The translations under genes and the position numbers were made by a program. A DNA stretch of 64,000 bases, from assembly GCF_002176815.1 (NCBI RefSeq), contig NZ_CP021648.1, positions 3,170,001 to 3,234,000 of the forward strand, given 5' to 3'. Positions 2,432 to 6,358 of this stretch are shown piece after piece. The notes under the pieces were generated by a model, which saw nothing but the letters and a program-made list of their open reading frames with translations, searched no databases and was not told the origin of the DNA. How positions within the stretch are numbered: position 1 is the first letter of the stretch; every line of letters starts with the position of its first letter. This stretch comes from Acidovorax sp. T1. GTDB taxonomy: Bacteria; Pseudomonadota; Gammaproteobacteria; Burkholderiales; Burkholderiaceae_C.

Positions 2432-2743
2432 TCAGAAGGAAACCGCCATGCCCGGCACGTCCACTCGCACCACGGGTTTGGCCAGCGCGGCACTGGCGGC
2501 GCGGGCGAAATCACGCGACCACACGGGATCGTTGAACAACGAGGCGCCGGCGGCGCGCGCCACGGTCAGCACCTTGTCGGCCAGCAACACCTTGCCACTG
2601 GCGCGCAGGGGTTCGCAATCCAGGGCAATGAACTGATCGTCCAGCCAGTGGCGCCCGGCTTCATGCGCCATGGGCTCCTGGCCCTCCAGATCAAAACGGA
2701 ACTCCTGGTTTCCAGTCAGCTGGACCGACACTTCGCTGTGCAT
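2432..2743 (-). CDS. Conserved hypothetical protein, 103 aa
   Basis: This is a small soluble protein with no signal peptide or membrane segment. It reads as an alpha/beta protein with the segments VQLTGNQEFRFDLEG and HWLDDQFIALDCEPLRASGK. I do not recognise a characterised family. It has a good ATG start and sits between mpl (convergent) and aroG (same strand, about 98 bp upstream), so it could be read through from the aroG promoter. Codon use matches its neighbours. Confidence 0.7.
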   Translation of the reverse strand: MHSEVSVQLTGNQEFRFDLEGQEPMAHEAGRHWLDDQFIALDCEPLRASGKVLLADKVLTVARAAGASLFNDPVWSRDFARAASAALAKPVVRVDVPGMAVSF

Positions 2744-2841: not shown

Positions 2842-3963
2842 TCAGCGCGCGCGGCGGGCCACCACGGCGGCCGACAGTTCGGCCAGCGACTGCAGCGAAT
2901 CATCCCAGCCCAGGCAGGCATCGGTAATGCTTTTGCCGTATTCGAGCGCAGCGGGCAGGTCCTTGCCCGGCGAGAACTTCTGGGCACCGGCGTTCAGGTG
3001 GCTTTCGATCATCAGGCCAAAAACGCTGCGCGAGCCGCCGGCAATCTGGGCGGCGATGTCACGCGCCACATCCAGCTGCTTTTCGTGCTGCTTGCTGCTG
3101 TTGGCGTGGCTGCAATCGACCATCAGGGTGGGCGGCAGCTTGGCGGCTTCGAGGTCCTTGCACGCGGCGGCCACGCTGGCGGCATCGTAATTGGGCGCCT
3201 TGCCGCCGCGCAGGATGACGTGGCAGTCCTTGTTGCCCTTGGTGTTGACGATGGCGACCTGGCCGTTTTTGTGCACCGACAGGAAGTGGTGGCCCCGGCT
3301 GGCCGACTGGATGGCGTCGGTGGCGATGCGGATGTTGCCGTCCGTGCCGTTCTTGAAGCCGATGGGCGCCGACAGGCCCGATGCCAGCTCGCGGTGCACC
3401 TGGCTCTCGGTGGTGCGAGCACCAATGGCGCCCCAGCTGATGAGGTCGCCGATGTACTGGGGCGAGATCACGTCCAGAAACTCACTGCCGGCGGGAATGC
3501 CCAGGCGGTTGATCTCGATCAGCAACTGGCGCGCGATGCGCAGGCCTTCGTCGATGCGGTAGCTTTCGTCCAGATAGGGGTCGTTGATCAGGCCCTTCCA
3601 GCCCACCGTGGTGCGGGGTTTCTCGAAATACACGCGCATCACGATTTCCAGCGTGTCGGCGTACTGGGCGCGCACGGCGGCCAGGCGGCGGGCATATTCC
3701 AGCGCCGCGGCGGGATCGTGGATGGAGCAGGGGCCAATCACCACCAGCAGGCGGTCGTCCTTGCCGGCCATGATGTGGTGGATGTTCTTTCGCGTCTGGG
3801 TGATCAGCGCTTCCACCGGCGTTCCGCTGATGGGGAAAAAGCGGATCAGGTGCTCGGGAGGTGGCAACACGGTAATGTCCTTGATACGTTCGTCGTCGGT
3901 CTGGCTGGTTTTCTCGACGCTGCGGTACCAGGAATCGGTAGCGGGGGTGGCGTGGGCCGTCAT
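2842..3963 (-). CDS. aroG: 3-deoxy-7-phosphoheptulonate synthase (DAHP synthase, class I)
   Basis: This enzyme condenses phosphoenolpyruvate and erythrose 4-phosphate to DAHP, the first step of the shikimate pathway, in the cytoplasm. The 373-aa protein fits the AroF/G/H type: an N-terminal extension with PPEHLIRFFPISGTP, then VVIGPCSIHDPAAALEYA (PEP/metal site), KPRTTVGWKGLINDP, GARTTESQVHRE, DCSHANSSKQ and the C-terminal SITDACLGWDD. Feedback type (Phe, Tyr or Trp) cannot be read safely from sequence. The gene is preceded by an aromatic leader peptide and an intrinsic terminator ending 38 nt before the ATG, so it is very probably controlled by transcription attenuation. aroE lies elsewhere in the window (19.65 kb) and is not linked. 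Confidence 0.97.
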   Translation of the reverse strand: MTAHATPATDSWYRSVEKTSQTDDERIKDITVLPPPEHLIRFFPISGTPVEALITQTRKNIHHIMAGKDDRLLVVIGPCSIHDPAAALEYARRLAAVRAQYADTLEIVMRVYFEKPRTTVGWKGLINDPYLDESYRIDEGLRIARQLLIEINRLGIPAGSEFLDVISPQYIGDLISWGAIGARTTESQVHRELASGLSAPIGFKNGTDGNIRIATDAIQSASRGHHFLSVHKNGQVAIVNTKGNKDCHVILRGGKAPNYDAASVAAACKDLEAAKLPPTLMVDCSHANSSKQHEKQLDVARDIAAQIAGGSRSVFGLMIESHLNAGAQKFSPGKDLPAALEYGKSITDACLGWDDSLQSLAELSAAVVARRAR

Positions 3964-4000
3964 GGTGGCTTCCTCGTGGATTGAAATGTCAGAAGGTCAG

Positions 4001-4038
4001 AAAAACAAAAACCGCCGGGCTTTTCAGCGTCGGCGGTT
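4001..4038 (-). terminator. Attenuator terminator hairpin upstream of aroG
   Basis: On the minus strand an 8-bp stem (AACCGCCG with CGGCGGTT, 4031-4038 and 4010-4017) encloses an inner GCT-GAAA-AGC stem-loop and is followed by TTTTTGTTTTT. It is a textbook intrinsic terminator placed between a leader peptide and the aroG start, pointing towards aroG. Confidence 0.88.
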
Positions 4039-4084
4039 GGTATGGTGAGGTTGGTGGGCTTGCGCGTTGTCCTCTCATCCGCCG
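4031..4084 (-). promoter_or_regulatory. Predicted antiterminator of the aroG leader
   Basis: The minus-strand segment CGGCGG at 4079-4084, inside the last codons of the leader peptide, is complementary to CCGCCG at 4031-4036, the 5' arm of the terminator. It duplicates the terminator 3' arm (CCCGGCGG in both). A ribosome paused on the Phe/Tyr/Trp codons leaves this segment free to capture the 5' arm and prevent termination. A ribosome reaching the stop codon would cover it and allow termination. The pairing is seen in the sequence; the mechanism is inferred. Confidence 0.75.
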
Positions 4085-4131
4085 GGGACTGAGATCCAAA
4101 ACCAAAAATAAAACGCGCTGCGAACTTGCAT
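4075..4131 (-). CDS. aroG leader peptide with a Phe-Tyr-Phe-Trp-Phe-Trp run
   Basis: This 18-codon open reading frame, MQVRSAFYFWFWISVPGG, ends in TGA. Six consecutive codons are TTT TAT TTT TGG TTT TGG, covering all three aromatic amino acids, which is extraordinarily unlikely by chance in a high-GC genome. It lies 37 nt upstream of the terminator stem, the usual spacing for a ribosome-mediated attenuator. No clear Shine-Dalgarno is visible. An extended -10-like TGCTACATT (4139-4147 on the minus strand) ends only 7 nt before the ATG, so the leader mRNA may start at or near the ATG. It is too short to be found by ordinary gene callers. Confidence 0.85.
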   Translation of the reverse strand: MQVRSAFYFWFWISVPGG

Positions 4132-4244
4132 GTGAATCAATGTAGCACAGTGTTTGCCGCACCGCAGCAAGCATGGGGCTTTGTGGCGTGGCGGCAACTG
4201 CCCTGGCGGACGGCGATGGCACCCGGCTGGCGAGGGGCAGGCTT

Positions 4245-4781
4245 TTATCCGCGCAAGTGCCGCAGCCAGGCCTGCACGCGCTGCCAGCCCGACAAGCGCG
4301 GCGGCGCGGCCTCGGACACATCGCTGTGCGGGCCGCTATCGTGCTCGTACATATCGATGAGCAGCAAGGCCTCGCCCAGCGTGCGCCAGGCCAGCAGTTC
4401 GAATTGCCGAAAGCAGGCGCCCTCGCGCGCGCTATGGCGCTCCAGCGCCTGCAGCCATGCGGCAATGGTGTCGCGCAACTCCCGCAGCGCGCGCTGGTAG
4501 GCGCCAAACTCGTACAACGCGTGCCAGGCGGAACCCAGGCCCGTCAGGAAAAGCTGGTGCTCGCGTGCGCACTGGGCCAGTTCGACCACGCGGCGGGTGA
4601 TAGCACTGGCATCCGCGCCAGACCGGCGCAGACGCGTCGCCTCGTCGATGTGCATCGACAGCGCCCCCAGGCTGTCCCGCAGCTGGCGGGAATCCTCGTC
4701 GGCCACGCCTTCGCGCAGAAAACGGCTGATGTCGCCAAACGACTGAAGGGTTTGCTGCAAACTGGAAAGCGGCGCCGGCAT
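4245..4781 (-). CDS. Conserved hypothetical protein, 178 aa, helical
   Basis: This is a soluble, strongly helical protein that starts MPAPLSSLQQTLQSFGDISR, with many Leu/Arg heptad-like stretches (residues 20-120). It has no signal peptide and no recognised domain. In-frame codons extend 60 residues further upstream, but that sequence is Arg/Gly-rich and lies in the gap before tldD, so the ATG at 4781 was preferred. It follows tldD on the same strand with a 92-bp gap and may be co-transcribed. Its end lies just upstream of the aroG leader region. Confidence 0.7.
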   Translation of the reverse strand: MPAPLSSLQQTLQSFGDISRFLREGVADEDSRQLRDSLGALSMHIDEATRLRRSGADASAITRRVVELAQCAREHQLFLTGLGSAWHALYEFGAYQRALRELRDTIAAWLQALERHSAREGACFRQFELLAWRTLGEALLLIDMYEHDSGPHSDVSEAAPPRLSGWQRVQAWLRHLRG

Positions 4782-4873
4782 GGCGTGATTGTGCGCCCGC
4801 CTCTGCGGGATGTCGTCCCCCGTGCGGCCCGCCGAAAGCCGCAGGGCACCGAAGCCCCCACCCCGGCGGGGTT

Positions 4874-6358
4874 TCAGGCCGTTCCGCCGACCGTCAGCCC
4901 GTCGATCCGCATCGTGGGCTGCCCCACGCCCACCGGCACGCTCTGGCCTTCCTTGCCGCAAGTGCCCACGCCGCTGTCCAGGCGCATGTCGTTGCCGATC
5001 ATGCTGACGCGCTTGAGGCAGTCGGGGCCGCTGCCGACGATGGTCGCGCCCTTGACCGGGTAAAGAATCTTGCCGTTTTCCACCCAGTAGGCCTCGCTGG
5101 CCGAGAACACGAACTTGCCCGACGTGATGTCCACCTGCCCGCCGCCAAAGTTGGTGGCATACAGGCCCTTTTTGATGCTGGCCACGATCTCCTGGGGGTC
5201 CTTGTCGCCGCCCAGCATGTAGGTGTTGGTCATGCGCGGCATGGGAATGTGCGCATAGCTTTCGCGCCGGCCGTTGCCGGTGGGCGCCACGCCCATCAGG
5301 CGGGCGTTGAGCGAATCCTGGATGTAGCCCTTCAAAATACCGTCTTCGATCAGCACATTGCGCTGACTGGTGTTGCCCTCGTCGTCCACATTGAGCGAGC
5401 CGCGCCGGTCGGCGATGGTGCCGTCATCGAGCACCGTGACGCCCTTGGCCGCCACGCGCTGGCCGATGCGGCCGCTGAAGGCGCTGGAGCCCTTGCGGTT
5501 GAAATCGCCCTCCAGCCCGTGGCCGATGGCCTCGTGCAGCAGGATGCCGGGCCAGCCGGGGCCCAGAACCACCGTCATCTCGCCCGCAGGCGCGGGGCGC
5601 GACTCGAGATTGACCAATGCGGCGTTCACCGCCTCGTCCACATACTGGGCAATTTGCGCTTCATCAAAATACGCCAGCCCAAAGCGCCCACCGCCACCGG
5701 CCGAGCCCATTTCACGGCGACCGTTCTGTTCAGCGATCACCGTCACCGACAGCCGCACCAGCGGCCGCACATCGGCCGCCAGCGTGCCGTCCGCGCGGGC
5801 CACCAGCACCACGTCGTATTCGCTGGCCAAACCGGCCATGACCTGGGCCACGCGCGGGTCCTTGGCGCGGGCGCGCTGCTCCACCTGCATCAGCAAATCC
5901 ACCTTGGCCGTGCTGTCCAGCGTGGAGATGGGATCCACGCCGGGGTAGAGGCTGCGCCCGCCTGCTATCTTTTTAGAAGCTACTCGCGCACGACCCGCCT
6001 GCGCCACAGCCGAAATAGACCGTACAGTGCGGGCCGCATCAAGCAGCGAGGCTTCGGAGATATCGTCGGAATAGGCAAAGGCTGTCTTTTCGCCGCTGAT
6101 GGCTCGCACCCCCACGCCCTGGTCAATGGAGAACGAGCCTGTTTTGACGATGCCCTCTTCCAGGCTCCAGCCTTCGCTACGGGTGTATTGGAAATACAGA
6201 TCGGCATCGTCCACCTGGTGGGTGCGAATTTCAGCCAGCGCACGCGCCAGATGGCCTTCGTCAAGACCAAAAGGCGTCAGGAGCAACTGGCGGGCAACAT
6301 CCATGCGTTGCAGGGTGGACGCGCGCTGGGGCGCGGCAGAGGGGGAGCGTGATGACAT
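4874..6358 (-). CDS. tldD: Metalloprotease TldD
   Basis: TldD with its partner TldE/PmbA forms a heterodimeric zinc protease that degrades unfolded or modified peptides in the cytoplasm, for example in maturation of microcins or of antitoxins. The 494-aa protein has the usual length and the family's metal motif HEAIGHGLEGD (HEXXXH, about residues 276-286), followed by NRKGSSAFSGRIG and the C-terminal segment SGPDCLKRVSMIGNDMRLD. No pmbA is present in the window. A half copy of the dispersed repeat (5962-5990) lies inside the coding region without breaking the frame. Confidence 0.96.
   Translation of the reverse strand: MSSRSPSAAPQRASTLQRMDVARQLLLTPFGLDEGHLARALAEIRTHQVDDADLYFQYTRSEGWSLEEGIVKTGSFSIDQGVGVRAISGEKTAFAYSDDISEASLLDAARTVRSISAVAQAGRARVASKKIAGGRSLYPGVDPISTLDSTAKVDLLMQVEQRARAKDPRVAQVMAGLASEYDVVLVARADGTLAADVRPLVRLSVTVIAEQNGRREMGSAGGGGRFGLAYFDEAQIAQYVDEAVNAALVNLESRPAPAGEMTVVLGPGWPGILLHEAIGHGLEGDFNRKGSSAFSGRIGQRVAAKGVTVLDDGTIADRRGSLNVDDEGNTSQRNVLIEDGILKGYIQDSLNARLMGVAPTGNGRRESYAHIPMPRMTNTYMLGGDKDPQEIVASIKKGLYATNFGGGQVDITSGKFVFSASEAYWVENGKILYPVKGATIVGSGPDCLKRVSMIGNDMRLDSGVGTCGKEGQSVPVGVGQPTMRIDGLTVGGTA
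5962..5990. repeat. Half copy of the dispersed palindrome inside tldD
   Basis: TGCTATCTTTTTAGAAGCTA followed by CTCGCGC matches the outer arm of the family (TGCTATT..GATAGCTGCTAGCGC). Its low GC stands out from the surrounding gene. It encodes part of RARVASKKIAGG. It could be coincidence, but two or three other genes in the window carry similar inserts. Confidence 0.4.

Follow-up and report, generated by a model that had tools for sequence, protein, structure and literature searches.

A probable transcription attenuator with a phenylalanine-, tyrosine- and tryptophan-containing leader peptide upstream of aroG in Acidovorax and other Burkholderiales

The window, which is the whole stretch of 64,000 nucleotides of Acidovorax sp. 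T1 that was analysed, contains the aroG gene on its minus strand, preceded by a short leader open reading frame (ORF) and an intrinsic terminator (Table 1). In a profile search the aroG product matches TIGR00034 with 537 bits (1.3e-161, cut-off 173), and it scores 546.5 with the AroG-specific profile, which is under the cut-off of 568 of that profile. The leader ORF, with its 18 codons and its run of six aromatic codons, is read exactly as it was described in the original prediction, and among the 631 ORFs that begin with ATG and encode 10-45 aa on either strand of the window it is the sole one with at least 5/8 aromatic residues. The terminator is also found where it was predicted, having a U-rich tail that extends to 4001, with the correction that the distance to the ATG of aroG at 3963 is 37 nt and not 38 nt.

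Table 1. Features of the aroG leader region in the window.
Feature	Position	Strand	Basis
Predicted extended -10 element, TG-C-TACATT, 7 nt ahead of the leader ATG	4139-4147	minus	Hexamer spacing across relatives
Leader ORF, 18 codons plus TGA, peptide MQVRSAFYFWFWISVPGG (ATG 4131-4129, TGA 4077-4075)	4075-4131	minus	ORF call; aromatic-run ORF in 79/79 testable relatives
Uninterrupted run of six control codons, Phe Tyr Phe Trp Phe Trp (codons 7-12, TTT TAT TTT TGG TTT TGG, 4113-4096)	4096-4113	minus	Reading of the window and codon tables of relatives
Predicted 1:2 hairpin (anti-antiterminator/pause) with its arms at 4094-4086 and 4080-4073	4073-4094	minus	Individual folds
Region 2, CGGCGG, in the last codons of the leader; antiterminator 5' arm and copy of the terminator 3' arm	4079-4084	minus	GGCGG in 104/108 leaders; pair counts
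Predicted antiterminator 2:3, CGGCGG (4084-4079) with CCGCCG (4036-4031)	4031-4084	minus	Fold, -16.7 kcal/mol
Intrinsic terminator 3:4, stem AACCGCCG (4038-4031) with CGGCGGTT (4017-4010), U-rich tail to 4001	4001-4038	minus	Terminator call; fold, -17.1 kcal/mol; covariation
aroG, DAHP synthase (3-deoxy-7-phosphoheptulonate synthase), predicted target of the attenuator	2842-3963	minus	ORF and TIGR00034

An ORF of up to 238 aa (4245-4961, minus strand) lies between tldD and the aroG leader on the same strand, and no NCBIfam match is found for the stretch 4248-4916. On the other side, about 98 nt past aroG and on the same strand, there is a 103-aa ORF (2432-2743, minus strand), which may be co-transcribed with aroG. 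A second DAHP synthase is encoded elsewhere in this genome (L002, G000:C1:20749-21807); it is 56% identical and has no aromatic leader upstream, and the aroG-type attenuator is confined to one of the two DAHP synthase paralogues of this genome. No such aromatic leader is found upstream of pheA of the same genome.

The folding energy of the leader region (151 nt) is unremarkable (z 0.07), a two-hexamer promoter scan finds nothing at this region of the window, and none of the Rfam covariance models, including Trp_leader and Phe_leader, reaches its gathering score in the window or E<=1 within 3960-4200. The case for an attenuator therefore rests on comparison with related loci. In a scan of named genomes and metagenome-assembled genomes (MAGs) for AroG, the best 80 loci (L003-L082) were taken, which are mostly Comamonadaceae by their titles and which were not chosen for having an aromatic leader; the nearest relatives among them are Acidovorax defluvii and A. 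delafieldii 2AN, being 98% identical. One locus with only 31 nt of upstream sequence (L012) was dropped, leaving 79 testable relatives. Each of these has an upstream ORF with at least 6/8 aromatic residues, as has the window, and in all 80 cases an intrinsic terminator, recognized by pattern as a 3' arm followed by a T run, is located between the leader ORF and aroG. The presence of the aromatic-run ORF together with the same terminator in the window and in all 79 relatives makes a chance origin of this leader appear very unlikely. Codons for Phe, Tyr and Trp are all present in 79 of these 80 leaders, the exception being a MAG (L047) with GGG instead of TGG.

A joint set of 108 leaders was compiled, in which 83 are from the own family and 25 from other families. 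The core [FY]FWF is shared by 78 of the 83 family leaders, and its four codons change in the manner of a coding sequence, almost only at synonymous sites, when the 78 leaders are anchored on it (first codon TAC 54, TAT 21 and TTC 3; second TTT 77 and TTC 1; third TGG 78; fourth TTC 64 and TTT 14). The codons ahead of the core are more variable, including codons for Ala, Gly, Ser and Arg. Swapped orders also occur within the family, FYFWFY in 3/83 and FYFYFW in 8/83 leaders, and this free order suggests, as far as can be judged from the sequences, that the presence of each amino acid outweighs its place in the leader. The 108 leaders favour TTT over TTC (298 vs 176), and this preference is reversed in aroG of the 80 loci (111 TTT vs 565 TTC).

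With a covariance model built for the element, matches at E<=0.01 are obtained in 194 of 200 family genomes, including 176 of the 179 good genomes; the six unmatched genomes have assemblies with 210 to 700 contigs. The element is also specific for its gene: when eight of the matched genomes were searched again, nine matches below 1e-10 were obtained, eight of which show the aromatic leader in front of aroG, and the region displayed for the remaining one (L190) is aroG itself. Weaker matches in the family were considered as candidate attenuators of other genes, and none of the ten inspected (out of 17) has an ORF with at least 5/8 aromatic residues.

It had been pointed out from the window alone that the last leader codons contain a CGGCGG, copying the 3' arm of the terminator and able to pair with its 5' arm. 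This motif is indeed located at 4084-4079, and the proposed pairing is supported by the relatives, since GGCGG is kept in 104 of the 108 leaders of the joint set, in three reading frames and with one covarying pair. The first base of GGCGG is at codon position 1, 3 or 2 in 73, 27 and 4 leaders, respectively, such that the tail of the leader peptide reads VPGGRE, PLAEG or SPRRS; the use of three reading frames implies selection on the RNA and not only on the peptide. In three of the four leaders without GGCGG (L031, L038, L092 and L096) a CCGGCG is still found, L038 being the exception. The base ahead of GGCGG varies jointly with the terminator, CCGG occurring with CCGCCGG and CTGG with CCGCCAG.

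The covariation was quantified in an alignment of 63 of the 72 listed elements. In the antiterminator, a C-G pair has become U-A in 13 of the 63 elements, and all 13 double changes are at this one pair; none of 500 shuffles, which ignore relatedness, has as many double-changed cells, and 93% of the cells are paired, as compared with 17-66% after sliding. In the terminator, a G-C pair has become A-U in 16 of the 63 elements at the column that matches this antiterminator pair, and the 18 double changes over two pairs are likewise not reached in any of 500 shuffles, again ignoring relatedness, with 97% of the cells being paired vs 27-60% after sliding. The numbers of pairs with double changes and of further pair types are not above the shuffles for the antiterminator (499/500 as high), and with the terminator these two measures are matched in 106 and 500 of 500 shuffles, respectively. 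Pairing is lost at the outermost position of the antiterminator in 20 of the 63 elements. In L036 and L140 the arm finder was misplaced, due to which the 3:4 fold of L036 was cut wrongly. In Extensimonas perlucida (L025:1321-1455, plus strand), the leader copy and both terminator arms have changed jointly, giving GCTGGCGG with CCGCCAGC; this triple change concerns a single lineage within the family. As far as can be judged from sequence, the comparison of upstream regions that the original prediction had proposed as a check finds the aromatic run and the hairpins conserved, with covariation in the antiterminator and terminator stems.

The alternative folds were studied with single sequences and with the wider alignment, which were used in place of an RNAalifold analysis of the family. 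RNAalifold with the family sequences alone gives no consensus 1:2 hairpin, and it finds the six-pair GGCGG 2:3 helix without covariation, because the arms hardly vary within the family and the alignment is gappy. In the single-sequence folds of 29 chosen elements, each has a 1:2 hairpin that spans the last part of the aromatic run, and the 2:3 helix gains further inner pairs, which in the window are predicted to be GAGG (4074-4071) with CCTC (4050-4047). The predicted antiterminator and the terminator of the window are about equal in energy (Table 1). For 91 elements, being those left when 17 of the 108 were excluded as duplicates, as lacking region 2 or for unusual spacing, the mean z is -1.1 for the 1:2 region, where the window itself has +0.5, and -1.25 for the interior of 2:3, where the window has -2.1; control stretches have a value of -0.02 as the reference for both means.

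The spacing is also in agreement with such alternative folds. The last aromatic codon ends 7-12 nt ahead of GGCGG in 99 of 104 elements (12 nt in the window), and the stop codon is found 1-26 nt past GGCGG across the elements. A ribosome covers about 10 nt beyond its A site, and it can be envisaged that a ribosome stalled at an aromatic codon would leave region 2 free or just at its edge, and that a ribosome at a nearby stop codon would mask it.

Immediately upstream of the leader ATG the family has mostly TGTGCTACATT or variants of it (TATATT, TAGAGT), resembling an extended -10 element. This hexamer ends 6-8 nt ahead of the ATG in 77 of 80 leaders, and the three outliers are explained by the chosen ATG of L011, L017 and L027, which is later than another in-frame ATG. 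A -10-like hexamer 5-9 nt ahead of the ATG is present in 80 of the 83 family leaders, as compared with 0-2 of 83 in nine control windows, and at this leaderless spacing it is also present in 12 of the 25 leaders of other families (0-1 in controls). A Shine-Dalgarno-like motif is found in none of the 83 family leaders and in one (L095) of the 25 others. The transcription start is predicted at about 4133-4131, 0-2 nt ahead of the leader ATG, and given the extended -10-like element at 6-8 nt from the ATG and the lack of a Shine-Dalgarno sequence the aroG leader mRNA is probably leaderless. A start downstream of 4075, by which the leader would remain untranscribed, had been named as an argument against the attenuator; the predicted start is instead at the leader ATG. 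The main text of a paper on transcription start sites of Burkholderia cenocepacia does not mention aroG. A further ORF with a similar upstream motif is seen outside the window, ahead of trpE of the same genome (G000:C1:3679732-3681129), where a 27-codon ORF, MFIHHVFITGCSDRGAWPWRTPVLLNA, includes Trp-Pro-Trp (L206:3086-3169, minus strand) and TACACT ends 6 nt ahead of its ATG. From its sequence, this may be another leaderless leader, and no U-tract terminator is seen after it.

The spread of the element beyond the family was assessed with 150 genomes drawn evenly from the order. An AroG homologue is present in 115 of them, and 69 upstream stretches (29 loci and 40 fetched), covering a part of these 115 genomes, were inspected. 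A leader with its terminator is found in 28 of these 69 stretches, covering 13 families including the own family, and L143 was accepted among the elements despite having only 4/8 aromatic residues. The leader peptides differ strongly across the order, as exemplified by MTRRFFFFFYYFPCLLADGTG and MKFASPAFYFYFYGFLKPLAEEGTRSI. No accepted element is found in the other 41 stretches, among which L123 and L132 have an ORF with 5/8 aromatic residues without a matching terminator and L141 has a matching terminator without an aromatic leader. Outside the order, clear copies are found in family f63 only (L155, L156 and L231), and 27 of 28 class loci inspected are without the element, the exception being L231 of f63. 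In a class-wide search with the model, 45 of 274 genomes match at E<=0.01, those below 1e-10 being three genomes of the own family and two of f63; 15 of 30 loci were inspected in following up the class-wide matches. In another family of the class (f92), a weak model match is a divergent look-alike (L172, genome G527), having a CFFYFSFF leader before a different DAHP synthase gene, together with a terminator that is matched by a copy within the leader (GCTGGG with CCCAGC). Judging from its sequence, the L172 leader is possibly convergent.

Taken together, aroG is very probably (with a probability of about 0.9) controlled by this element through ribosome-mediated transcription attenuation like that of trp in E. 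coli, as originally proposed, a reading that is strongly supported by the conservation, the copied arm and the covariation. RNA polymerase would start at, or about two bases from, the leader ATG, and a ribosome would load on the leaderless mRNA and trail the polymerase closely. When charged tRNA-Phe, tRNA-Tyr or, in the own family, tRNA-Trp is scarce, this ribosome would stall in the aromatic run, covering region 1 and blocking the 1:2 hairpin, such that region 2 (CGGCGG, about 11 nt past the run) would stay available for pairing with the terminator 5' arm; the 2:3 helix would then form and transcription would read on into aroG. When all three are plentiful, the ribosome would reach the stop codon and mask region 2, the 3:4 terminator would form and transcription would end before aroG.

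The identity of the amino acids that are sensed is less certain than the attenuator itself. The proposal that one leader reads Phe, Tyr and Trp holds within the family with respect to the codons, of which all three kinds are kept in 79 of 80 leaders, and it does not extend in this form to other families, where Trp is missing in 11 of 25 leaders. Trp codons are present in 82 of the 83 family leaders vs 14 of the 25 elsewhere, a comparison that has to be read with the restriction that the 28 order elements were picked for an aromatic leader, by which the amino acid shares are not free of selection. True sensing of three inputs, with a separate response to each amino acid, is given slightly less than even odds. 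The same holds for the complete reading, in which a leaderless attenuator would sum the shortage of Phe, Tyr and Trp and would set the entry into the shikimate pathway at the RNA level in many families of the Burkholderiales, the order of the codons being free and all three being kept in the Comamonadaceae.

It is also quite conceivable, at a little less than these odds, that the same attenuator senses mainly Phe, with or without Tyr, and that the Tyr and Trp codons are tolerated neighbours which keep the run slow or T-rich. In the joint set Phe is present in 108/108 leaders, Tyr in 105/108 and Trp in 96/108, with means per leader of 4.39 Phe, 1.73 Tyr and 0.95 Trp (7.07 aromatic codons overall), the Trp codon being single in most leaders. 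Such a sensor would agree with the Phe-Tyr-Phe leader aroR of Corynebacterium glutamicum, which is described as reacting to Phe and not to Tyr (PMC11802643), and with the drop of sensitivity with the fraction of regulatory codons as treated in PMC1183508. Against it, Trp is nearly invariant in the named set and changes its position while Tyr fills its place, and 75 of the 78 anchored leaders have retained Tyr at codon -2.

It is improbable that the terminated leader has a further function in trans, be it that of a small leaderless mRNA or of an sRNA, for which the trpL RNA of Sinorhizobium is a precedent (PMC7298713). The predicted leaderless start and a predicted terminated product of about 130 nt would suit such a role, and there is no pointer to it among the findings at the locus. 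Leader peptides with arrest or sensor functions exist generally, such as TnaC, and the hydrophobic aromatic peptide could in principle act as a nascent-chain arrest or stress sensor, halting the ribosome upon a signal from free amino acids or from slowed translation, and not as a sensor of charged tRNA; the N-terminus MQVRSAF is well kept among close Acidovorax relatives, but the identity, order and number of the aromatic residues vary and the tail is read in three frames, which makes this reading quite improbable. A plain terminator or insulator of transcription from the same-strand ORF upstream, with an aromatic ORF present by chance, is scarcely credible despite the intrinsic terminator, being rejected by the conservation of the ORF in all testable relatives and opposed by the promoter-like element, the arm copied in three frames and the covariation.

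The trp-type attenuator at aroG is a likely regulator of the enzyme with which aromatic amino acid synthesis begins in a large and metabolically important order. Since a single leader has separate codons for each amino acid, the attenuator offers a clean system for studying the joint effect of several starvation signals, and it is also suitable for asking whether a leaderless start aids the coupling of ribosome and polymerase. It could also be used as a switch in strains that produce aromatic compounds.

Leaders in which one peptide has the control codons of several pathway products are known from the ilvGMEDA and thr operons of E. coli, which differ from the aroG leader in belonging to the branched-chain and Thr/Ile pathways, and trpL of E. 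coli has a Shine-Dalgarno sequence. The amino acid leaders of Rfam, such as Trp_leader, are of the same kind of mechanism as the aroG leader, and Rfam also has Phe_leader and other amino acid leaders. The original paper on the aroR-aroF attenuator of C. glutamicum is reportedly Neshat et al. 2014, and for the ilvBNC leader of that species, formation with no ribosome binding site is reported (Morbach et al. 2000). Among the open-access papers listed in searches directed at this element, beyond which most subscription journals lie, no description of an aromatic attenuator of aroG in Burkholderiales was found. In its passages on Phe and Tyr operons a survey of Actinobacteria has no RNA elements before them, the main text of a survey of premature terminators does not include DAHP synthase, and work on regulons of Proteobacteria describes TyrR and TrpR as regulators of aroG/aroF in gamma-proteobacteria.

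Among the closest known systems is aroR-aroF of C. glutamicum, where a DAHP synthase is preceded by a leader peptide with aromatic codons and controlled by ribosome-mediated attenuation (PMC11802643; the aroF leader also appears in an earlier RNA-seq paper, PMC4046766). By this precedent the idea of an attenuator at a DAHP synthase is less new than was originally thought, with its novelty standing for the Burkholderiales as far as the sources considered here go. The aroR system differs from the aroG leaders in being from an Actinobacterium and, in these accounts, in having no mention of Trp, whereas the aroG leaders are from Burkholderiales, include Trp and are rich in aromatic codons. The uORFC-13-1 motif before aroF of Acholeplasma, described as a predicted upstream ORF (uORF) with Phe followed by an intrinsic terminator (PMC8632094), is similar in having both elements before a DAHP synthase gene, and is different in having a ribosome binding site and at least one Phe codon, with 24 examples that are restricted to Acholeplasma and environmental DNA. 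Attenuation of a DAHP synthase gene was also hypothesized for aroF of E. coli (Camakaris et al. 1980, via PMC2659441 and PMC8632094), and an RNA candidate upstream of aroF of Shewanella is noted as 'Attenuator sensing tyr-tRNA' (PMC2659441); the E. coli case is a gamma-proteobacterial hypothesis for which these sources give no comparable leader. The trp and pheA/pheST attenuators of E. coli share with the aroG leader the control codons near region 1 and the alternative 1:2, 2:3 and 3:4 hairpins (PMC1183508), unlike it responding to one amino acid each and controlling branch genes or a tRNA synthetase and not the common first enzyme. In the trpLE(G) system of Sinorhizobium meliloti the 5' end of the attenuator RNA is the ATG of the leader ORF, which is thus leaderless (PMC7298713), as is probably also the case here; this leader is specific for Trp and is from an alpha-proteobacterium. 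The kind of attenuator is old, as known from trp and pheA, and its Trp-containing and probably leaderless form in the Burkholderiales, as it emerges from the sequence comparison, appears to be new.
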